This document shows positions 45,801-64,000 of a stretch of 64,000 bases of DNA, in pieces. The first letter of the stretch is position 1; each line of letters starts with the position of its first letter. Under the pieces are notes generated by a model, which worked only from the letters and a program-made list of their open reading frames with translations, did not search any database and had not been told where the DNA came from. The stretch lies in contig CAUEEP010000245.1 of the NCBI GenBank assembly GCA_958450365.1, forward strand, positions 372,001 through 436,000. The letters run 5' to 3'. The stretch is from Mesorhabditis belari (taxonomy: Eukaryota; Nematoda; Chromadorea; Rhabditida; Rhabditidae). The position numbers and the translations under genes were made by a program.

Positions 45801-47250
45801 ATATGTACATTGGGAAGATGTGGGGTGGAAATCAGTTTCCACCTCATGTTAATAACTATGAGATTAGTTGAGAAAACTTTTAATAAAAATCCCATAAGCT
45901 TAATCATCGATATGTATTTTCAAAGGTCAAAAGGAAAAAGAATCTTGTATTAGAAATTTTTTTTTTTAACCTTCATTAAATGTCTCGAGAATCTACCTTT
46001 AATGCCGAAAAGAGCTGCTTGTTCAAGGACTCCCGGAATAATTGTAAATGGAGCAAATGAAAGAGCTAACATTTTCAGTTCTTTTCTAAATAGCAACTTA
46101 GTATTAGAATTTTTAGCTGGGGTGCACTTCCCAACTGAACCTTTTCAACCGATCATTTCCCTTTTACTTTGATGGTTGAACTCTGCAAATTTAGCTTTTC
46201 CTCTCTCTAAAGGGAAAAATGAGGCTCATGTGAAGAAAGTCCGAGCATCATCTGGGTTTTGTGGATTGAATGGCAAACAAATTGCTTACCAAATCAACAT
46301 CGAGTCCATACATGCAATGTCGTGTATTTGGATCATACTCTGGTCTGTTTTGTTCTCAACCTCCCTTCAATTGACTTCAACCTGCACAATATACGTTCCG
46401 CCCAGACAAATCCATAATTTGTGTTCTCCTTCTCCAGGACACTAAAAAATTCAAATTTAAACTTTGAAGTCGCTTATGGTGTCTTTATCATCCCCCGACA
46501 AAACCACTCAGGGTGCTGCATCTTGTCTCCAAAGTGGATCTGTTTCGATTTTGTGTTGAACCCAATTGTCCAAAATATGTTTTATGCAACGCAACCATGA
46601 AGTGAGTACCTAAATTTTAAACTATGATACAAAAATAAAGACAAAAACAAACCCGGTGTAATACAATTCGGAGAGTCAAAGCGACTTCCTTCGGGAATAC
46701 TCTACTCCGTCTGGATGGCTTTCTTTTAACGCAAATTCCGCATTTCTTGCCGACCTAAATATTACTCATGTAAACATGCAAAAACATTATTTTAATCTAT
46801 TCTAAATATGTACTTACATGAATCTTCTTGCTCGTTGTTGGTTCATTTTAGCGCGTGGAGCAACACCATCAATTGCCATGAAAAAGACACGTTTAGGGCG
46901 AATGATTTTGAACAGCATCTAAACAGACATCACATACCACACCCTGCCTAAAACTTACATCAATATACGCAGAAACGTCCGTAAAAATCTGCTCCTCGCT
47001 GATCCGAAACATGACATCGTCGTCATCGGGATGAGAGCAGCAATGAATGATCCCATTCATATCAAGGTACAAGTTGTCGAACTCGGGCACCTGAATTTGG
47101 AGAAGGAATTTACCTATGCAAAAATTTAGCCTTACCTGTGCCTCCGAAACGACTTGGCTGAGACATGGATAACGCTCGCTCACCCATCTAAAAACATTTT
47201 ATCACAAACGCTTTATAAATAGCCAACCTGTAAAATTTCGGTACCCCCAT
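39836..47250 (-). CDS. xrn-1: 5'-3' exoribonuclease XRN1, frame broken in this sequence
   Basis: The minus strand starts MGVPKFYRW (ATG 47248-47250), then [49 protein letters not shown] and [17 protein letters not shown]. These are XRN1 signatures and include the acidic metal site of the nuclease. Later blocks are [73 protein letters not shown] and PFRPFE, in XRN1 order down to about 44 kb. From 43.9 to 39.8 kb the match weakens to an SH3-like and low-complexity tail with [20 protein letters not shown] and an RG/N-rich end ([18 protein letters not shown]); membership of this part is inferred. XRN1 degrades decapped mRNA in the cytoplasm. Conserved blocks sit in different frames or contain stops, e.g. 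near 46575, 46425, 46207, 45830, 44595. The 3' boundary is uncertain. Confidence 0.65.
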
Positions 47251-47628
47251 CGCACACACCTCTCTACAACAATAATCTAAAAATGTCAACTCAATTTTTT
47301 TTGTGATTTGAGACAAAATATTACTATTAGAGCAATGTCATGCAATCTATAAAAACCAAACATTTATTATGACTAGGGAAAAATGTGGTCAGGGCACATA
47401 GCAGCACTACGTACTCACCTACCCAATCCCAATGCGAACAAAGAAAAGAGATTTGAATCCCATATGCTAGGAATTGCTCAATAACAAAAAACTTTTTACA
47501 AGGTTTATTGGAAAAAACAATTCAATTTATCACAATACCGAAAAATATAAACATAACATGTATGTATATCCTATAAAAGTAAATGGTCAAAGAGTACAAG
47601 AATAAATATATTTATGGACATTTGGGGC
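47251..47628. other. Short spacer RECQ5 to XRN1
   Basis: 378 bp separate the RECQ5 stop from the XRN1 start on the same strand. Nothing coding is seen. The short gap would fit a nematode operon with the downstream gene trans-spliced, but no SL2-type signal can be proven. Confidence 0.4.
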
Positions 47629-51042
<3,414 letters not shown>

Positions 51043-51695
51043 CTTCTAGAAGCAAAAATATAAAAAGTTTGAGATATAAAAATACGGAAAGCTAAAAGAA
51101 ATATGCATTTGTGCATAAAAATTAGAGAGATATCCGCTTAGGCGGGGTAAAGTGCGCGTAAGAATGATCAAAGAGGAAGATGGGCGCGAAAATGAGGGAG
51201 GAGTTAGGAAGAGGGACAGCCAAAGTGCGACTGTGTTACCCTTCTTGAGTTAATATCCTTTAAATTATGCTAGAACAAAAGATATTCAAGAGAAATTTAA
51301 GTTCTTTTCTTGAATATCTTTATTGCACTCGGTTACTTGCTTTTCTCAATAGAGAATGCTAATTTTTATTATCGCACGCGGTTCACTTGCATTTCTAGTT
51401 CTCATAATCTTGTCCCGTAAATCTTTCATCTTTTCATGCCGTCATCCTTTTTCGAAACTCACACACCTCACCCCTTTTCCCTTCCCTGTAACGTGTGGCT
51501 ACGCGTTTGAGTGCAAATATTCTCTTAGCAAATCAGCCCCTACCCTCGTTTAGTATTTTGTTTCTGTGCGTTCTTTTTTTCTCGTTGTCAAGGCGGGATT
51601 TTCTCTCTTTAAAAATTTAGCGCAATGTGCTAATGCTTCGCGCTGTCGTGCAATTTGTGGCCAAACTTTCACTCGACTCGCTTTTCATTTCAGAG
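51043..51695. promoter_or_regulatory. Shared divergent promoter region of RECQ5 and LIG3
   Basis: About 650 bp separate two head-to-head start codons. The stretch ends CTTTTCATTTCAG two bases before the LIG3 ATG, which looks like a trans-splice acceptor. A 24-bp near inverted repeat around AAAGATATTCAAGA (51289-51325) is present. No TATA box is obvious. Promoter function is inferred from gene order. Confidence 0.45.
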
Positions 51696-54600
51696 ATGAG
51701 TACCCGTTACTCGTGCGACTATGCCGTCCGTGCAGCTGGTTGCAAGAAATGTAAATTGCAACTACCTAAAGGAGTGAGTGCTTTCAACTTGTAGATCTAA
51801 AATTGTTGTCCAGGTGCTCAAATGTTGAATTTAGGAATTACGCTTGGCGAAGGTCACGCCCAATCCGTTTGTCCAAAATGCGGAAGGACCTCCACCGGAT
51901 ATGAAATCGTGGGTTGTTTAAAATTTGAAACATATTTTGAACATTCAGGTATTTTCATCCAATTTGTCTTTTTGACACTTTCATGAAGGCTCGCGCCACA
52001 ACAAAAGTGATTGAGGAGCCCGGTGATCTTGAAGGTAAAATAAAATTAAGCATTTAAATCTATTTGTGGGTAGGTTGGATTGACATGACTGATGAAGACA
52101 AGGTGAAAGTCACCGAGCTTATCGATGATTTGGTGAAAACACGCGAGAAAAAGGGAGGCGGCGTTCAGAGGACTTTGACACCAATTGTTAAAAAAGCTGT
52201 CAAAAAGGTAGCTTTGGAGGAATCTAGTTTTGTTTCAAAACTTATTTTCACTAGACAGTTTAGTGAGGTTTTAGGAAGAGGATAGTGAGCAGCAAAGCAG
52301 TGCTAAGGCAGCTGCCTTCTTCAGCAAGAGAGAACCATTGAAGGCTGTGAAAAAGGAAGAACCGGAAACGGAAGAGAGTAAAGCGAACCAAGAAAGCAAA
52401 TTCAATTTGTTTACAAAGGTTAAAAAATGGAAAAGCTATTATGGAATTCTTTTAGTTGTGCAAACTTTGCGAGCTCATTGCAGACGTTAACAAGCATCTT
52501 GACAAAGCCGATTGTGTACGCCGCTTTTTTAAGTCGGGTAATTTAAATTATCTATTCACAAAATACTTTTATTTAGATGGGTATGACGGTGATACCTTGC
52601 TTATTCTTCGTTTCCTGATCCCCAGCATTGATCAGCGCGTGTACAACATTAAAGAACGTCAATTAATCAAGCACTTTGCTCAGGCTAGCAATTTTTTTCT
52701 AGGTTTTTCAAAGTCTGTTTAGATTTTTGGAGTACCACCTGCGAAACTCACAGACGAGTATAATAAGAATGGCGACATTTCGCAAACAATTAAAGAAGCC
52801 GCTGAGAATTTCAAATTTTCTGTTGAAAAGAGCGATTGGAGTATTCAAAAGGTTGCATTGATTTTTGGTGTGGTCGTTAATTTTTAAGTACAGATTGATC
52901 GTTGGCTAGATAAACTTGCACAAAAAACTCACGATGAAGATCAGCTGGAGCATCTACGTTTTGCTACAAAAAGGTAATTATGGAAACGTTTCAAAAAACA
53001 TCTAAATTGATTTAGGCTTTCTCCACGAGAATTGCAATACCTTCTGCGGTTGATCAAAAAGGACATGCGGTTTAACGCAGGTTTTAAACCAGTCAGAAGT
53101 TTAACTTTTCTTGATTTATCTAGGTGCAAAAGTCATCTTTGATGGTTTTCATCCCAATGCTTATGAGGCTTTCCAGAGTTGCAGGTTTTTTAAAAATTTA
53201 CAGTTAGTAAATCTTTTCTTTTGTTCAGGGATCTAGCGGATATTGTCAAACGAGTTGAAACAGGAGCAATTTCAGGGGAAAAGTCCTCGCTTGCGGTACT
53301 ATAAGATTTCCAACGTTTTTATACCTTGCTTCTAGGTGAACATCACTCTTGGAACACCAATTCTTCCTATGTTGGTGAGTCCATTATCAAGTTTTGATGT
53401 AAATTATTAAACTTAGGCTGAGGCATGCAAGAGTGTTGAATTTGCCATGAAAAGATGTTCAAATGGAATGTTGGCTGAAATCAAGTACGATGGAGAACGT
53501 GTTCAAATACATAAAAAGGTGAATAGGCAGCTGTTATCAAAGAAGAATCATTTTAGGGAGACAAATTTGACTTTTTTTCACGTTCGCTGAAGCCTGTGGT
53601 AAAACACAAGGTTTGTGAAATTTAAACTTGATCAGAAAATGTGATGATAGGTTGCTCTCGTTGATAAGTATATTGTCAAAGCTTTCCCTGATGCCAAAGA
53701 CCTGATTTTGGATGCCGAAATTTTGATGGTTGACACAGCTACTGGTAGGGTGTACATCCTATTTTAAAAGATTGATTTTTTAGGCAAACCTCTTCCCTTT
53801 GGAACACTTGGTATTCACAAAAAAGAGAAATTCTCGAATGCTGTTCCTTGCTTGTTTGTATTTGATTGTCTGCTTTATGATGATGTACCTGTTAAGGACA
53901 AGTAAGTATTATAGACATGTACGTTTTACAAAAGGTTTTTAGGCCGCTCTCCGAAAGGAAGAAATTCTTGGAAGATACCTTAAAGGAGGTGCCAAATCAC
54001 GTGATGCACAGTAATTATCAAGTGATCAAGCATGGAGTTGGTTTTGTATACACTTGACACTTTACATTAATTTTAGGAAAATCATAAATTGAAAACTATG
54101 ATTCTCAAAGCCATTGATGAAGGATTGGAAGGGCTTGTTCTCAAGGTATTCAATGTTTCTTTGGATGTAACCCAAGCTTTTAGGATTTGAATGGAGTGTA
54201 TGAGCCTGGAAAGCGCCATTGGTTGAAAGTGAAGAAAGATTATTTGGAGGATGGTGGTATGGCTGACACTGCTGATTTGATTGTTCTTGGAGCTTATTAT
54301 GGAACTGGAAACAAAGGTTAGAAATTGAACTTGATTCAAAAAAGGAATTAATAGGCGGTAAAATGTCGGTCTTTCTGATGGGAGTATATGATGAAGACAC
54401 TGAAACGTATCGGACTGTTTGTAAAATGGGTAATGGACACACAGATGAAGTTCTCGACAGGTTGAACAAGGAATTGAAGCCAAAAGTGCTTTTTTTGATC
54501 AAACTTTTATCTATGAAGGTTTTAGATGCGTGCTATTAAACGAGATGTCGAAAAGCTTCCCAAATGGCTTCGTTGTTCTTCTCAATTGTGCCCAGATTTT

Positions 54601-55583
54601 GTTATGATGGATCCAAAGCAAGCACCAGTTTGGGAAATTACAGGTTTTTTTAACATCTGGACCCCTAGAATATGCATTGTTTCATAGGCGCCGAATTCTC
54701 TCGATCCACAAACCATACGGCTGACGGAATTTCGATTCGTTTTCCACGTGTGACAAAAATTCGTGACGACAAAGATGTAGAAACGGCTACATGTCTCAGG
54801 GAATTGAAGGTTGGCATTAAGGCCAGACTCAAGTTATTTTTCGCTTTAGATCTTGTTCGAAAATTCAAAAGAAAAAAGTGATGTTGATAAAGACGAAGAT
54901 GATTCACTCCCAATTTATTCAAAAGACAAGCTAGCTCTGGGACAAGCAATGCACGATTCGGAGGTGAGCTCTAACCATGTTAATTTCAAACCTATGATGC
55001 CATTTATACTAGTTGTCTAATAATTCAGGGCGAAGATGATGACACAAAGCATTTATTGAAGCAAGAAAATGAACAAAATGTCGCTGTTGAGGTAATTTTC
55101 TTTTAGTATGAGTCATAGTTTGGCATATTTAGAACACATCGCCAAAGCGCAGCCCAAGGAAGAGAAAGCTAGAAGAAGAAAAGAGCCCTGTAAAGAGCAA
55201 GAAAAGGAAGTCGAATGAGGAAAATATGGGAGATGACAAAAAAGACGAGCAGCATTTATTGAAGCAAGAAAATGAACAAAATGTCGCTGTTGAGGTAATT
55301 TTCTTTTAGTATGAGTCATAGTTTGGCATATTTAGAACACATCGCCAAAGCGCAGCCCAAGGAAGAGAAAGCTAGAAGAGGAAAAGAGCCCTGTAAAGAG
55401 CAAGAAAAGGAAGTCGAATGAGGAAAATATGGGAGATGACAAAAAAGACGAGCAGAAGGACTTGCCAGCTTGCAAGTAACGGTTTTATATCACTAAATGC
55501 AACCCATTAATTCTAGATGGGGATCACTTTGTAGTCGAAAGAATCCACAGCACTTGAAGGAGTTTGCTCATCCAAAGAAGTGA
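51696..55583 (+). CDS. lig-3: DNA ligase III with N-terminal PARP-type and C-terminal PBZ zinc fingers
   Basis: The protein starts MSTRYSCDYAVRAAGCKKC (ATG 51696). The N-terminal PARP-type zinc finger runs through CKKCKLQLPKG, VTPNPF and FHPICLFD (51700-52000), followed by KARATTKVIEE, as in LIG3. Next are the DNA-binding domain (ELIADVNKHLDKADCVRRFF, then RLIKKDMRFNAG) and the adenylation domain with the nucleotidyl motif EIKYDGERVQIH (53477-53512; the Lys is adenylated), FDFFSRSLKP, LDAEILMVD, EGLEGLVLK and LKVKKDY. The OB-fold is MSVFLMGVYD to FPRVTKIRDDKD. A Lys/Ser/Glu-rich linker is encoded by two near-identical exons. The last exon gives CKWGSLCSRKNPQHLKEFAH, a PBZ finger, with TGA at 55581-55583. 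No BRCT domain is seen. LIG3 seals nicks in nuclear base-excision/single-strand-break repair and in mitochondria. There is no obvious mitochondrial presequence before this ATG. The frame is intact. Confidence 0.92.
55049..55454. repeat. 203-bp tandem duplication creating an extra LIG3 exon
   Basis: Unit 1 (55049-55251) and unit 2 (55252-55454) are nearly identical; I see one A/G change (AAGCTAGAAGAAG versus AAGCTAGAAGAGG). Each unit holds the end of one exon, a 41-nt intron and the start of the next. The exonic part is 162 nt, so the frame is kept and 54 residues are duplicated. Confidence 0.93.
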
Positions 55584-56885
55584 ATGCACAATCTATTTAA
55601 ATGATTTTTCGTTGTTTTGTTTGTATTTATTTATAACCCATTTTGATACTCAACGATATATTTATACGGCTAGACACCAATTTAGAAACCTTGCTGTTCA
55701 TTCGTTTTGATTTTGATCAATATTACCTCAGTTTTTATTTTTAAGCTTTGGTGATGCTTTATCAGAATAAAATTTATAAACTCAAGTAACAAAAAAACTA
55801 AACCATAAAATACAAAACGGAATCTAACAAGCCTATATTCAGCATGAAAAAATAGATTTAAGAAAAGAAAAACGGTGCTTGTATGGTTTACATGACCCAT
55901 TTTTTTTCTCGAAATTGACCACTTTGGGGTTTTAAGGTGCGCTGAATTCGAATTTCGCCATCCCAGGTTGGGAAAATGCACACCAACAGAGTTATACAAT
56001 TTTTGAAAAACGTGTTTTTAAGCGCTTTTGATGTTTTAAATGAGCCTTATTGCTCGCAGGGATACATGTCACGAACTTCATTCCAGAAGTTGAACGCTGA
56101 AGCATGACCAAATTCTTGCTTCCATAGGAACTCATTGATGACGTTGGTGTGGCGATCATTAGATCGGATGCTGACTTTTGGTTATTTTCAGGGCGTTATA
56201 AAGATCTTAAACGTGTTTGAACAGGTTAAACAAGCCCATTGGGTTAAGCCGAACTGCTAGTAAAATTTGCATTTAAAACATCAAAAACGCCTAAAAACAC
56301 GTTTTTCAAAAATTGTATAACTCGGTTGGAGTGCATTTTCCCAACCTGGGATGGCGAAATTCGAATTCAGCGCACCTTAAAACCGCCATAATCCATTTCC
56401 ATTTCGAGCAAAAAAATGGGTCATGTAAACCATACAAGTACCAAAAAAACTGAATTTGTAATTTAACCGTCTGATCCAAAGCGTAGTAAATTTTAAATGA
56501 AAGACCCATAAAATAATGATCGCAGTTTCTTCACGGTTCGTCAACGAATTGAACGGAAAGAAATAAGTCAAATTAATGCTGATGACGATCATCCGCACAA
56601 TGAAAATGGCATCGAGGAGTTAGATTTCGTCCTGTTATTCTGCGCCACTTCCAGTACAAAACCTAGAAAATGGTTTTACAGAACTTTATCACCGACTACC
56701 TCTTTTAAGTGCTGAAATCGGTTTCCCTTTTTTCCTTTATTAAATCTTCGTCCTCGATTCCATTCTCTTGTCTCCATTTGGCTTATCCGCAATTGACCGT
56801 GTATATAATTATTGAAATTCCATCTAAAGTTAGCAGATACATCAATACTAAACTTTGGCACTTACGGATCAGACGGTGCTATTTG
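55584..56885. other. Convergent spacer LIG3/RARS2 with foldback element
   Basis: No conserved exon. Most of the spacer is the foldback element at 55874-56442. A stretch at 56506-56660 has no recognised content. Confidence 0.5.
55874..56442. mobile_element. Foldback element with about 168-bp arms
   Basis: The left arm (55874-56041), GGTGCTTGTATGGTTTACAT..., is repeated inverted at 56271-56442, ending ATGTAAACCATACAAGTACC. Strongly matching internal segments include AAGGTGCGCTGAATTCGAAT and TTTTTGAAAAACGTGTTTTT. The centre is about 230 bp. The open frames in the arms mirror each other and are not genes. Confidence 0.85.
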
Positions 56886-59049
56886 TCACATTTCTTTAGT
56901 CGGTTTCAGTCCTAATAATGTCATCCCATCGGCCAACACTTGACGAGCTGTCAGCAACAAACGAAGACGAGGCACAGCCACATCAATCGACTCCCCAGAA
57001 ACCTATAAAAATGAATATCGAATATAAATCTTGCTATCGAAATGTTTACTTTTTGGTTGGCAATGGCTCTTCCAATATGATGTGCCAGTTGAATAAGATG
57101 AACGGTGAGTTGACATGGTTCCATCCGGCGAGCACTCTCCACCAAAACTCCTGGCGTTGCGTTAAGGAAATCAATCAATTGTTTTGCTCCTTCATCTAAA
57201 TGGCACATTGATGCTTATTAACCACTATTAAAAACCCTCGCTGATTCTCGAATCCTCATCTAACTTGGGGAGCAACTCGGCATTTTTAGCTTCAATCGAA
57301 CATAAACGTGAATATTTCTCCTAAACAGGCTTAAAATATCCAAATTGGGTAAAGAAACCTGTAAAAGAAGAGCGTTGTTTTGATTGAGTGCAAAAGCATT
57401 TTTGAAAGTAAACTCGTATTCAGAAGCTCGCGCTCTCTTCAACGTGTTCACCGTGATAGCATCCAAAGCAAGCACGCGTGATAACTAAGCAACTTGGTGA
57501 ATATTTTTGCTGAACATCTACAACCTGTGCTATTTCCTCTTCTTTGACTTTGGCGGTGGGACTTGATTTAATGTATTGTCTTGCCAATTCTGAGCCTCGT
57601 TCGATGACATCTGTGACAGCTTCCGTTTTGCCTAATCTGAACAAAATTGAATATGTGCGACAAAGAGACCAATCTTGGCATGGAACATCACAATTTACCT
57701 TGTCGACAATCCTTGCACACGTCCAAATATGACATGTTCAATTTTATCCGCCAAATCTCGTCGTCCCATTTTGCCAAGAACATAGCCGATTTCCTACACA
57801 AAGTAAATACTCTGCCATTTTTGAAGAAAATATCTACCTCAAAATGCCTTTTTTGTGCTCGATCAACAACATAGAGGTACCGATCAGCTCCGAATAATTT
57901 GTCACGTCGTAAGATAGAAGCCACATCTCTAAAATAATAAAACAAAAATGGTAAAATCATAATAGTTCTTACCTTGTCAAGTAAAGTGTTGTATCATCGC
58001 TTTTCTTTACGATTGAATATTCTTCTTTACCCTCGGCATTCTTTTTCTCCATTTCAACTACCCATCTAAAATGATTTCATGAAAGAATAAGCCCGTCAAA
58101 CTTACAATCCATCTGCTCTCTTCACAGCAATCCCTTTTTGAACCAATTCATCGATAACTTTTCTTGCACCTGCTACTTCGTCCGACTCGAAAAAGGTTCT
58201 AAATAAAACAAATGACTGGTTATTTTTTTTTAAACAGAGCGTACTTGTCAAAAGTGATATCCAGTAATTTGTAAAAATGTGCGAGATGTCTTTCGGATAA
58301 TGATCGAATATCCCTCCAAAGTAGCATCACCTCATCCTCGATTACTCCTCTAAAAATTCATATTTCTCTACTGGATAAAAAGGAAACTCATAAAATTTAT
58401 AAATCTTACTTGACAAGGAAATCTTCCATCTTTTTATACGTGTCACGTACAACCACTCTGAAATCACCTTCGGTCGTTAACATCTAATTTTCAAAAATAA
58501 ATCCATCAAAAAACGTGAACTTGCCTTATTAGCAACAACATAACATTGCTGGATCAACTTCATTTTTTCGTCATCGCTCACTTTTGTCCAAAATGCATCG
58601 GAAGGTCGATTCTATATAGGTCTCCAATGACTTTTAGATCTTCAAATTTTGAACTCAATTAAAAGGGGAGATTAATTGCGTAAAGTACTAACCTGTGGCC
58701 AATATGCAGCGATGAGTGCAAATTGAGTTCCCCAGTCACCGAGATAGTTCAACGAAGTCACATCATCGCCCAAATTTCGATGCGCCTTAAGAAAATTGTA
58801 TTAGGTCATTTAAAAGTTTAAGCAACCTTATCGATGAATCGTCCGATTAGTGTCGATCTGAGATTACCCACGTGAAATTGTTTTGCGACGTTCGGCGAGG
58901 AGAAGTCAATCAACAACTAAAAATCAAATAATTTCTACTATCACCGATAAAAAAAAATCAGCAAATACCTTTTTACGTGGTTGCGAAGTTGCTCGCCATA
59001 GTAGTTGTGCTTGAGCGGTAAGGCCACCCGCACGTCTTAACCCGTCCAT
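56886..59049 (-). CDS. rars-2: Arginyl-tRNA synthetase, mitochondrial type (RARS2-like)
   Basis: The minus-strand start is probably [18 protein letters not shown] (ATG 59047-59049), but an in-frame exon extends upstream to about 59079 (RFEDINAKL), so a further 5' exon is possible. The class I catalytic block is [20 protein letters not shown] (58855-58914), where FSSPNVAK is the RARS2 wording. [18 protein letters not shown] follows, then a long insertion, [30 protein letters not shown] and [20 protein letters not shown], which holds the modified KMSK loop (GLSTR). The anticodon-binding helical domain includes [16 protein letters not shown] and [10 protein letters not shown], and the end is [14 protein letters not shown] and TGA at 56886-56888. 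It charges tRNA-Arg, probably in mitochondria. The HIGH signature reads HVGN here. No clear mitochondrial targeting peptide is visible from the chosen start. Confidence 0.88.
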
Positions 59050-60223
59050 CAGCTTTGCATTGATGTCTTCAAATCTCTAAATGTGAAAATCCATTAAACC
59101 AAGTTGGTAGTCATAAAGTAACCAAGGAAAAAAGGAAAAGAGGGAGAAAAGGAAACTCTCTTGAGTGACAACTGTTCACGTCGATTAACAACAAAAAAAC
59201 GCATTCATAGAGATCCGGGAAGTTTTTGGTGCATTTAACACAACATGGTTTTTTTTTATATAAACTTTATCAGAGTTTTTTGTTAGAGACAACTTTTCGG
59301 AAGAGACATGAGGGAAAAGAGATCGTGGATGCATAATACAAAAAAGTGGAGAAGAATCTTTTTTTTATGAACGAAAAAGACCTAAAATCTGAACCATATC
59401 AAAATCTGTGCTTCTTCTTTAATTAAAGGCCACGACAAGGTCAAAAAAATTGTGTGAGAAAAATATACTTTTGAAGTACCGCCCACAAATATCCCCATAA
59501 AGTGTCCCCATGTGGAGACACTTTTTGATACTGAAATGCTTCGTTTCCTTTTTTCTCTCGAGCTTTTTTAAAATTACTGTGATAGAGAAAATTTAATAAA
59601 GAGTTTAAAAAAATCTCGTTTATCGCAGAATTTTAAAAAAGCTCGAGTGAAAAAAGAAAACGGAGCATTTCAGTATCAAAAATATCGGTACTTCAAAAGT
59701 ATAGAGAAAAAGCGAAAAATTTTTTATGTCACAATCTCAATTTGCATACCGCGTGGCAGCGCTTTAATCTGGATTGTCTCAATAATTTTCGAAAAAGGCT
59801 GTCACGCAATATGCAAATTTGTTTTGTGGAAAGAAAAGCTATAAAAACCTCAGACTTTCAAACGAGAGAAATCAGAGCCCAAACAGTATCGTTGCCTTTT
59901 TTACAAATTTTCAACCCCCAAGCGGTACAATAAATGATGTTTCTGGGTAAAATTCAGACAAAACTACTTGATGAAATGAATGCCCTTTGAGAGGAGACAA
60001 AATAAGACCGCCTGTAATCTTCCTTCTCCACTTTCCGCTGCTTCCTATTGACCCTTCATTAGTGTGCTTTCCATCCCGACCCTCCAACTGAATTTACACC
60101 ATCTTTTCTCCAGACCTTTGTCCTCACACAATTTATCCTTGAACTCCGCTAAAAATGTCAAAGTTTTAGGTAAAACGATAAATGCGAAGTTATTCAACCC
60201 GTTAAACTCAAGATTCATAATTC
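59050..60223. other. Divergent spacer RARS2/RIC1
   Basis: Head-to-head start codons with an intervening foldback element (59464-59703). A pyrimidine-rich stretch at 60020-60130 precedes the RIC1 start. Promoters for both genes are expected here but no motif is certain. Confidence 0.4.
59464..59703. mobile_element. 240-bp foldback element
   Basis: Ends TATACTTTTGAAGTACCG and CGGTACTTCAAAAGTATA are inverted. Internal arms CTGAAATGCTTCGTTTCC and GGAAACGGAGCATTTCAG-type sequence (one or two mismatches) continue the pairing to TTTTTTAAAATTCTG. No coding capacity. Confidence 0.8.
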
Positions 60224-63200
60224 ATGTTCTTCCCGGTAAGCCTTTTAGCAATGTAAAAACAAATTCCTTTCTTTTAGTATGGATGTGAGGCCGAAATTCG
60301 TTTACCGTGGAATGGAGAGAGCTCATCTGATTGTTCTCCTGTTCATTATGTGTGCGCGAATCGAGATCGAAATACGATAGCCGCTGTCACGGACGATGTT
60401 TTGTATTTATACCTTGCACAAGTAAGTTTTCTTTGGATAATTGAAGATTTATTTGCTTTTTAGCCCCAAGTCTTGTTGTGCTTATTGGGAAGAGATGCGG
60501 CTGATGTCCTGGAGAAAGGAGCTTTTCGGCGAATCTATTGGCGATTCGATTCTTCGTTTTTGGCAGTTTTGGTTCGTTTATATTTCCAAACAAGCATAAA
60601 AGCTTTCATTTGTACTTCAATTTCTTTTAGACCTCTCGAAATCACATTCTTATCTACCGTGTGGAAACCTCCAATGAGAATTGCTATAATTTAATTGATT
60701 CGGCACATTCACAATTTCAACGTCAAAGTCAGGAGCTTTTCATGAAGGTACTTTTGTAATACGTTTGACTTATTATTGATGTTATATTTTTTATTAAAGA
60801 AACAAAATTCGATTTAGGAACCTCGTCCCAACACAAAGCTGAACTTGGCTGTCGTTGTAAATCTCGCCGCTAAAGCCACGTGGTAAGTTTTAATTTTGTT
60901 TTATAAAAGATTTATTTATTAAAATTATTTAGTGCCGTGTCAATGCGAGAAGAGTTGTTGGTGAGCCTAACGAATGGTTTCGCTCATCGAATTTCATGGT
61001 CTGGCCAGGTGAAACAAATTGCATCATAAATGTTCTTCATCTGAACTTTAGGTAGATGCTGAATATTCCATTCGCCTATCTTCAGTACCCTTTGCTAACG
61101 ACCAGTTACAAAGCAGACGTAATTTTTTTCTGAATTTTTTTGAAATTATATCAATTATTATAGCCGAATTCATTCCGGAAGGAACCTTTATCAAGGATAT
61201 GGTTTATGCTCCGTTGATGGGTGGATATTGTGTGGTATTGAATGATGGAAGGGCTTCTCTTTTCACATCTTCCGATCCACGCTTTCATCCAACAGTATAA
61301 ATACCTTTTATTAAGTTGCTTATTCTTGCCTCAGACTTTACTTGGCGTTTGGGCTCTTCAATTAAATGATGCAGCATGCGTAGATGTCAATCACAAACAC
61401 CGACTTCTTGTTTTTGGATGTAGCAAGTAACTACTCGGGGTTTTATTTTTAAAAAATATTTCTTTAGTGGTGACGTTGCCGGGTATCACATTGATGACGT
61501 GAGTGGTGCTCTTTTATCAACATTTCGGGTTCCTTTGGTAGTCAAAGATGGTCCAGGTATGGTTTTTCTAGGGCTTTTTTGCAAACTATTCCATTATTTC
61601 AGAATTATTAAACTGGCTTGGCCCGGTCCGTCGAATCAACGTTCTGCAAAATGGAGCCGCTTTTGCCGTGATATGGGGTCCCAAAAACAAATCCCCAATG
61701 GTTTCATTTTATTGTCCAACTAAATTTGTGTAATCATCTTTAGAAAAACGAAAGCAAGACGACGACTCCCGCACTTGCAATATTCAGTGCCTATGGCGGA
61801 CAGACTTGGTGTTCACTAGAAGCTTCCTACAGCGTGTAAGTAGCTGATTTAGCAAAAGAAAGGAACTAGAAAATAAATTCGTCGAAAAAAATGAATTTAT
61901 GATTTAGGCCGCTTCCAATGGGATCGTTAATGAGTGTAGAATGGGGAGCAGAAGGGCTACATCTATGGATAGCTCGTTCAACCGGCTTATCTCTTTTGCC
62001 TATCGTTCACAACGCTTCCATAAATAATCCTACAATGGTATGATTTTATTCTTTCTTATATGACCCAAAATTGTATAGGAACATTCGTCTCGCGTTCTCT
62101 TGATTGGCTCTTCAAAGTTATTGTTATCGCCGGCAAGGGAACGTGAACCTCTAGCATCTGCACCACACTCTGTTTGGACAACTTTAACCCCGCATAATGA
62201 GTATCTCGCAAATAATTGGCCGATCAGAGTAAAAATTCTTTTGCTGTCTTGAAACTCTGTTCCTCTGTAGTTTGCTTCCATTGATCGTGAAGAGGCCCGT
62301 TTCCTTGTAATAGCTGGTACTCATGGATTTGCACATGGAAATTTGGCAACTGGAAAATGGAAAATTTTTGGGAATGAATCACAGGTGGGTAATTTTCGGT
62401 AAATGTAATAATTTATATTTTGTAGGAACGCGAACTTATCACCACAGGAGGAGTATTTATTTGGAAAGGGACAGTTGGAGTTGCGTGCTGTAATGTCGAG
62501 CGAGCGGCAGAGTTGTTACGGTATAAATAATTTTTGCGGAGAAGACGAATACCGATGTAGGTTTTATCCCTTGAATACGAAACTGGATAATCAATATTGC
62601 TCCGAATATGATACTGAAGCTCGTATTTTAGCTCTAAACATACGGTGAGTTCACACTTGTTTGCCCTTTAAATATTACCCCTTACCTGCTTCAGCGAAGA
62701 TTGCCTTGTGACATTTGATGTCGAATCGAGGATCCTTCTATTCCGATTGACCGCTAGTCAGGTAAGAGCTATGAAATAAGGAATGCAACACAACTGTATT
62801 TTCTGCAGAGCTCAAAGTCTGCGGATGCTTATGTGAGAGTGGCAGTTGAAAAAGCGGCAGAAATTCGTGTTGGTGATCTGATTCCACACCCGGCTTGTTT
62901 AGTTTCTATTCATGTCACCGAGTTGATACAAGACAAACCAAAGAATATGCATGGTAAGCATTTTATTTCTTTCAAAAGGCAAAAATATTTCAGTCCCTGA
63001 GTCTTCATTTTTTGTTCGAGGCGTCGACACTGTTCTCGTGAATGTTTCCGGTCGCTTAATTACTTTGAATCCGAAAGGACATATGCCCACCGATACAGAT
63101 GAGGACGTGAAGTTTCAGGTTATTCCTTGCAAGCTAACTGTTTTCATATTTTTACTTGCAGCTGAGTCAGCCGATAGTGGTTGCTTCATTTGTGGAGCAT

Positions 63201-64000
63201 TTATGGCACGATAGAGCACATGGATCGACTCAAAAAGCAGGTTTGACTCGAGTTTGAAACTTTTGAGTTATGAAATCAATTTACAGGATCCGCTCAACAT
63301 CTGTCGAATGCTATGTGGATCTATTGTGGAGCAAAAGGAATGAAAGTAGGTTTTCATTTGATATTCATCTGAATTTTGCTGTCATTGTTCTCATTTAGGT
63401 GTGGTTAACTCTTTCTCGCCGAGGAAACATTCAACAAGAGTCGTTCCATGCTCGACGTAACATGTTACCATTTACTCTTGATATTCGACCTGTTAGTAAG
63501 TGTTAATTATATTATCTTAATATTTCTTCTTTTAGTCATCTATAGTTCGGATTGCGTGGCTGTGGGGGTCGAGAGTCTTCCAACTGTTTATGGAGGAAAT
63601 CATTCAACCACTCTCTACAACGTCCATCGAAATAGCGAGGTCTTTATTTAGCTTCAAATTTGAATCACCCTTTGCATTTAGGTATTTCTACATCACATCC
63701 TGAAAGAACTTCTCAAGAAGAATTTGGGCGAGTTTGCAATTGAAATAGCGTCATCGTGTCGTCATCTTCCCTATTTTCCACATGCCCTCGAATTGTTATT
63801 GCACGGAGTACTCGAAGAGGAAGCAACAAGTAGCGAACCAATTCCAGGTAGCATTTTAAATCTTCAAGGGTGAATTACCGTTTTTTTCAGATCCGTTACT
63901 ACCTCGTGTTGTCGGCTTCATAAAAAAATTTCCCGAAAATCTGCGGACGATGGCTCATTGTGCAAGGAAAACCGAACTCGCTCTTTGGCCAGCTTTGTTT
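60224..64000 (+). CDS. RIC1, RAB6 guanine-exchange complex subunit (3' truncated by window)
   Basis: The start is a 12-nt coding exon (MFFP, 60224-60235) with donor GTAAG, joined to an exon from 60278 reading [15 protein letters not shown]. The frame then runs through about 20 short exons in RIC1 order: [177 protein letters not shown] and [20 protein letters not shown]. The WD/beta-propeller N-half and the start of the RIC1 helical domain are present; the C-terminal part lies beyond 64000. RIC1 with RGP1 forms the GEF for RAB6 at the Golgi and supports retrograde traffic and, in animals, procollagen secretion. No lesion is seen. Confidence 0.9.

Follow-up and report, generated by a model that had tools for sequence, protein, structure and literature searches.

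A DNA ligase III of Mesorhabditis belari with a C-terminal PBZ finger and without a BRCT domain

The analysed window, a 64,000-nucleotide stretch of the Mesorhabditis belari genome, belongs to contig C179 of an assembly of 207.6 Mb in 714 contigs and carries a gene for DNA ligase III (LIG3) on the + strand. The splice model comprised 28 exons, with a coding span of 51696..55583 (stop included) and a product of 908 amino acids; introns were GT-AG in 26 of 27 cases, the remaining one (52684-52722) being GC-AG. The modelled protein was identical over 908 of 908 residues to the public M. belari entry P0001 (NCBI/UniRef, named 'partial'), indicating that the public annotation has the same splicing of the last exon. 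A second LIG3 copy was found on contig C702 as a 3,066-base locus in two aligned pieces (99.8 and 99.9%). The finger exon is identical between the two copies, and comparison of the loci suggested that the C702 copy is most likely the other haplotype.

Several features flank the gene. A helicase-like gene lies head-to-head with LIG3 on the - strand (47600-51045) and encodes a QESGRAGRDKK motif that is RecQ-like by eye; no Pfam match was obtained for its piece at 48650-48976. Ahead of the annotated Met of LIG3, an in-frame upstream ATG (51633-51695) would add 21 residues, perhaps presequence-like, and an acceptor-like TTTTCATTTCAG ends at 51693. A trans-splicing choice between mitochondrial and nuclear LIG3 forms through this ATG is possible. 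On the 3' side, an imperfect long palindrome (55874-56442), with 115-nt arms at 97% and 45-nt arms at 93%, is perhaps a small inverted-repeat transposon.

Pfam analysis of the protein placed PF00645, PF04675, PF01068 and PF04679 all over cut-off. The PARP-type zinc finger (zf-PARP, residues 13-96) is encoded by exons 1-4 (51732..52123), the DNA-binding domain (DNA_ligase_A_N, residues 170-336) by exons 5-11 (52410..53152), and the nucleotidyltransferase domain (DNA_ligase_A_M, residues 380-576) by exons 13-20 (53366..54234). The KYDG motif is invariant in the LIG3 alignment and is present in M. belari, where the codon for Lys405 of KYDGER, the active-site Lys of the family, occupies 53483..53485. 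The OB-fold region (DNA_ligase_A_C, residues 604-715; 54316..54773) starts at a codon split between exons 20 and 21. Downstream, the splice model gives a charged linker (54850..55464), in which the AF2 model predicts disorder (pLDDT < 50 over residues 753-878). A 203-bp tandem duplication (two units, 99%; 55048..55455) copies an exon-intron unit of this linker. Only one unit is present in the C702 copy, where a C run of the linker is also one base longer.

The finger itself is split over two exons (55465-55475 and 55517-55580). Its first part (55465..55475) runs from residue 884 to a split Lys codon, so that exon 27 supplies the first Cys (55471-55473) and two bases of that codon; the last intron (55476..55516) follows, and the last exon (55517..55583) carries the remainder, comprising W888, the second Cys, S893, R894, K895 and the two His, together with the stop. 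An earlier sequence-only reading had described a last exon joined by GT-AG, which agrees with the 41-base intron modelled here and with P0001. The interval that it gave for the finger (55456..55583) does contain the finger, but two exons carry it and the intron is included.

The C-terminal residues 884-908 matched the PBZ family zf-CCHH (PF10283) with 39.1 bits (E 7.4e-10) against a cut-off of 22.7, and the zinc ligands are C2H2 with PBZ spacing. Among solved structures, APLF alone matched the last 31 residues at E <= 1 (2 sequences, E about 1e-11), and the AF2 model gave pLDDT values of 83-86 for the finger blocks. In a Foldseek comparison, the top match of the model was human LIG3 (3l2p, E 3.1e-55), whereas LIG4 and LIG1 ranked lower; the protein also grouped with other LIG3 in trees composed of LIG3 rows, without a LIG1 or LIG4 outgroup. 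Both the proposed PBZ finger at the C-terminus of this ligase III and the proposed layout, with a PARP-type finger at one end and the PBZ at the other, were thus borne out by the splice model and Pfam.

The same reading had seen no BRCT domain, and this too was upheld. No BRCT was detected in the protein by Pfam at E <= 1. A six-frame scan of 46000-64000, which covers the downstream sequence and used stop-to-stop pieces of at least 12 amino acids with an HMM built from 19 LIG3 tails, gave a best E of 3.4. The C-terminal BRCT that marks LIG3-alpha, the XRCC1-bound form, was accordingly absent from the M. belari protein by Pfam and from the scanned frames. These results confirmed that the gene encodes a DNA ligase III with a PBZ C-terminus and without a BRCT.

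The distribution of the two domains was assessed in 156 LIG3 rows (28 nematode and 128 others) among the matches listed, a similarity-ranked set rather than a census, scored with HMMs built from LIG3 tails. The survey across nematodes suggested by the sequence-only reading found the expected finger without BRCT in 20 of the 28 rows listed, but Plectus had both domains and seven rows had neither. Among the 128 non-nematode rows listed, 56 had PBZ and BRCT, 4 PBZ only, 59 BRCT only and 9 neither. The BRCT-only rows listed include vertebrates, tunicates, insects, horseshoe crabs and one snail model, and the four listed as PBZ-only are isoform or partial models, all with Gln at the phosphate position discussed below. 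A further 84 rows listed with a C. auriculariae query were scored apart from this tally, and 11 of them had the finger. The presence of a PBZ on LIG3 is already in database annotation (Pfam).

In LIG3 proteins with both domains, the distance from the finger to the BRCT HMM was -12 to 31 residues, with a median of 0; the order PBZ then BRCT was verified by Pfam on six proteins and more widely by HMM. In the 20 nematode rows listed that have the finger and no BRCT, the protein continues for at most one residue past the finger HMM. Since the PBZ abuts the BRCT elsewhere, the worm LIG3 therefore ends approximately where the BRCT would start. In four LIG3 (P0042, P0049, P0065 and P0079), a macrodomain lies between the OB fold and the BRCT, where other LIG3 have the PBZ.

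Finger-less nematode models among the matches listed numbered nine: four of Brugia, Setaria, P0016, P0029 and two of Angiostrongylus (P0158 and P0170). The Brugia models (P0018, P0019, P0020 and P0022) end at ...IPCK, which coincides with the position of the last M. belari intron; for this reason they are likely truncated, perhaps through a stop inside the intron, with the finger exon hidden. None of the LIG3 matches listed was named as belonging to Enoplea or Tylenchina.

In a tree of 35 LIG3 rows, with sequences cut after the OB fold and Mytilus left uncut, the nematodes formed one group (support 100/100), and Plectus was sister to the other 18 nematodes (100/99). As 56 of the 128 non-nematode rows pair the finger with a BRCT, the nematode state likely reflects loss of the BRCT and not gain of the finger. 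Taken from these comparisons, the PBZ was probably present on LIG3 in an early animal ancestor that carried both domains, the BRCT would have been lost once in nematodes after Plectus branched off, and the PBZ would have been lost in vertebrates and some others.

Finger positions were fixed by alignment with APLF, in which, by the available text of PMC6264785, Y381 and Y386 contact adenines and R387 phosphates. All 27 BRCT-less nematode fingers have Arg at the position of R387, mostly as CYRK; they come from the matches listed, with the M. belari finger counted in both copies and the five core-less Caenorhabditis-type proteins included. The residue is Gln in Plectus, and the 64 non-nematode fingers listed have Gln (56), Asn (5), Arg (2) or Leu (1). 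Both non-nematode Arg fingers are from Trichoplax, one of them (P0161) with a BRCT, indicating that Arg is independent of BRCT loss. A general rule that Arg marks BRCT loss fitted the first 81 fingers and was broken by Trichoplax. The Gln-to-Arg change and BRCT loss represent one event on one nematode branch and not a repeated correlation. The phosphate-contacting Arg would make most nematode fingers competent to bind poly(ADP-ribose) (PAR).

The printed PBZ consensus for PAR binding (from the accessible parts of PMC4030884 and PMC9404506) comprises a basic residue at the third position ahead of the first Cys (C-3), Phe or Tyr before the Gly, two basic residues that follow the second Cys, and Phe or Tyr near the last His, and was applied with APLF spacing, one residue shorter than printed. 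Of the 27 BRCT-less nematode fingers listed, 18 matched; seven of the nine misses deviate at C-3 alone, and the other two are the M. belari copies. The only matches in the 64 non-nematode fingers listed were the two of Trichoplax. In the M. belari finger CKWGSLCSRKNPQHLKEFAH, Trp (W888) and Ser (S893) replace the two adenine-contacting Tyr, and a Leu instead of a basic residue stands three before the first Cys. It therefore departs from the consensus through Leu at C-3 and Trp for Phe/Tyr, whereas Arg-Lys and Phe fit, and all four zinc ligands and the Gly are kept. No other BRCT-less nematode finger listed lacks Tyr or Phe at both positions, and this finger was the furthest from the printed consensus among the nematode fingers listed. 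Moreover, it scored 28 bits with the LIG3 finger HMM, versus 32-40 in other BRCT-less nematodes. Because Trp and Ser sit at the adenine-contacting positions, PAR binding in M. belari is uncertain and may be weaker, altered or lost. In addition, tandem fingers of APLF are reported to gain more than 1000-fold in PAR affinity (PMC4030884, in the text at hand), so that a single PBZ may bind weakly. Vertebrate LIG3 is itself among the proteins listed with a PAR-binding motif in the part of PMC8327145 that we cite; contact with PAR is thus not necessarily special to the finger form.

Genome-wide family searches in M. belari returned matches to PARP-catalytic and PARG families. The earlier proposal that the PBZ binds PAR directly gained from these matches and was weakened by the Leu and by the replacement of both Tyr with Trp and Ser. 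No match to XRCC1_N (PF01834) was returned from the genome by the exon-wise search, which also missed the zf-PARP (PF00645) of LIG3 itself; the negative for XRCC1_N therefore carries no information. Neither LIG3_BRCT nor PF12738 matched the genome, and PF00533 matched one BRCT place, in the same exon-wise search that is insensitive to exon-split domains. The search for the ligase A_M domain recovered the two LIG3 copies only, a sign of low sensitivity, and the PBZ search, of the same low-sensitivity kind, likewise recovered these two alone. In intron-rich genomes, negatives from exon-wise family searches mean little.

The C. auriculariae query also yielded five core-less proteins of 484-496 residues (P0224, P0225, P0226, P0228 and P0229), from sources that include C. 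bovis, C. sp. 36, C. remanei and C. briggsae. With gene models used as annotated, Pfam found a zf-PARP, a ligase N-domain and a C-terminal PBZ in all five, and neither a nucleotidyltransferase domain, an OB domain nor a K[YA]DG motif in any. They grouped with the complete C. auriculariae LIG3 in an N-domain tree (100/99), and the grouping was the same with uneven or single-cut trimming of rows. No separate Caenorhabditis fragment bearing the missing core was found among the best 120 matches listed; the search admitted proteins of at least 476 residues, and a shorter C. elegans counterpart would escape it. Mean pairwise identity among the five was 87.5% in the zf-PARP, 76.2% in the PBZ tail, 69.3% in the first linker, 61.9% in the ligase N-domain and 58.0% in the acidic linker. 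As the zf-PARP and PBZ are the best conserved parts, selection seems to hold both reader ends without the ligase, which suggests that the two ends work together independently of ligation. Of all the observations, this one backs the idea of a joint function of the ends most strongly.

The PARP-type finger of LIG3 senses nicks, PBZ fingers read PAR, and the BRCT of vertebrate LIG3 binds XRCC1. We propose, with a probability of about 0.58, that the two ends of the BRCT-less LIG3 themselves keep it at PARP-marked nicks, in place of a bridge between the LIG3 BRCT and XRCC1. Starting from an early animal LIG3 that would have carried PBZ and BRCT, nematodes would have dropped the BRCT once, after the Plectus split, while Arg at the phosphate-contacting position would render most of their fingers PAR-competent. 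The zf-PARP and N-domain would find the nick, PARP would make PAR at the break, and the PBZ finger would hold LIG3 there, so that recruitment by PAR takes the load that vertebrate LIG3 hands to XRCC1. In M. belari, with both adenine-contacting positions changed, the step that relies on PAR is likely to be weakened or altered. Caenorhabditis would in addition have lost the catalytic half, with the nick finger and the PBZ remaining as the best conserved parts. A broader and more tentative reading, which we hold at somewhat under even odds, is that zf-PARP and PBZ constitute a separable 'nick plus PAR' reader that replaced the XRCC1 bridge and outlived the enzyme in Caenorhabditis as a non-catalytic break reader. 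The sequence-only reading had suggested that the finger may bypass an XRCC1 bridge; since many BRCT-bearing invertebrate LIG3 share the finger, it is probably not a nematode invention in place of that bridge, and the derived event would be loss of the BRCT.

For M. belari, the mechanism of the sequence-only reading is weakest in the residues of the finger. The M. belari finger could be a decaying remnant that perhaps binds zinc and not PAR, nicks being found by the PARP-type finger and the DNA-binding domain alone. Trp and Ser at the adenine-contacting positions, Leu for the basic residue and a rather long M. belari LIG3 branch (0.65) are consistent with decay, and SNM1A offers a precedent of a PBZ without critical residues that is predicted, in the available portion of PMC9404506, to be non-PAR-binding. 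Nevertheless, the finger retains its four zinc ligands as well as Gly, Arg-Lys and Phe, the finger exon is the same in both M. belari copies, and Trp is in general able to stack on adenine; we consider decay unlikely, although it deserves serious weight. A different ligand, for example RNA, a histone or a partner protein, would instead make the finger a docking element of LIG3 unrelated to PAR. Of the non-nematode fingers listed, 0 of 60 carry the first basic residue that the PAR consensus calls for, or 2 of 64 in the larger set, both from Trichoplax, and since most non-nematode LIG3 fingers are without it, PAR may not have been the original ligand; PBZ is also described as structurally closest to ssRNA-binding tandem fingers (PMC4030884, in part). 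This explanation appears improbable, however, given the APLF-like Arg in all 27 BRCT-less nematode fingers, the PARP-type finger that LIG3 also bears and, from the same partial source, the reading of PAR by PBZ in other repair proteins.

Two further explanations concern the bridge and the gene model. XRCC1 might be present and bridge LIG3 through another surface, with the finger adding avidity, and the uninformative genome search for XRCC1_N leaves room for this. The BRCT is missing in 27 of the 28 nematode rows listed, seven of them short models, and C. elegans is reported without XRCC1 (PMC3969565, in the section available), both of which speak against such a bridge and make it a low-probability reading. 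An artefact, with the last exon unjoined or a BRCT exon further downstream, is hardly credible: the public annotation gives an identical protein, a C-terminal finger occurs in 20 nematode rows listed, and no BRCT was found in six frames up to 64000.

If the two ends do hold LIG3 at PARP-marked nicks, the route of LIG3 to single-strand breaks can be viewed as a natural experiment, in which an ancestral-looking tail has two addresses, a PAR finger and a BRCT; vertebrates retained the BRCT address and most sampled nematodes the PAR finger. This predicts that recruitment of nematode LIG3 is PARP-dependent and XRCC1-independent. What most merits further attention is the history of BRCT loss together with the core-less Caenorhabditis proteins, and the function of a non-catalytic LIG3 relative in Caenorhabditis is open to genetic testing. 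Truncated gene models such as those of Brugia may conceal a PAR finger.

Compared with known systems, the M. belari protein resembles animal LIG3 with both domains (for example Lingula P0084, Nematostella P0107, Branchiostoma P0026 and Plectus P0012) in its zf-PARP, its three ligase domains (N, M and C) and its PBZ, but in those proteins a LIG3_BRCT comes straight after the finger, and the phosphate position mostly holds Gln in place of Arg. Vertebrate LIG3-alpha shares the zf-PARP and ligase core, whereas it has a BRCT and no PBZ in the complete vertebrate rows listed; its listed PAR-binding motif is of another kind than PBZ (PMC8327145, as cited in part), and the complex of XRCC1 with LIG3 is described in PMC10722394 (available portion). 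The PBZ fingers of APLF share with that of M. belari the four zinc ligands, Gly and Arg-Lys-Asn-Pro, but at the two Tyr positions the latter has W and S, and it is a single finger fused to a ligase. In the open-licence literature on PBZ and ligase III, as partially accessible, we found no description of a PBZ on LIG3, which may be published elsewhere. Ligases with PAR-reader domains are, by such partial sources, already known in other lineages. DNA ligase E/K of bdelloid rotifers and Mortierella carries a PBZ at the C-terminal side of the ligase, but is a distinct lineage of bacterial origin, and the accessible text of PMC10665377 and PMC6264785 makes no mention of a zf-PARP. Dictyostelium LIG3 has a fused domain of ADP-ribose-reader type, which is a macrodomain and not a PBZ (PMC5087659 and PMC8529158, in the parts available). 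HPF1 of insects and molluscs, according to the available part of PMC8634249, places a PBZ on an invertebrate repair factor that is not a ligase and is a parallel only for lineage-dependent use of PBZ.
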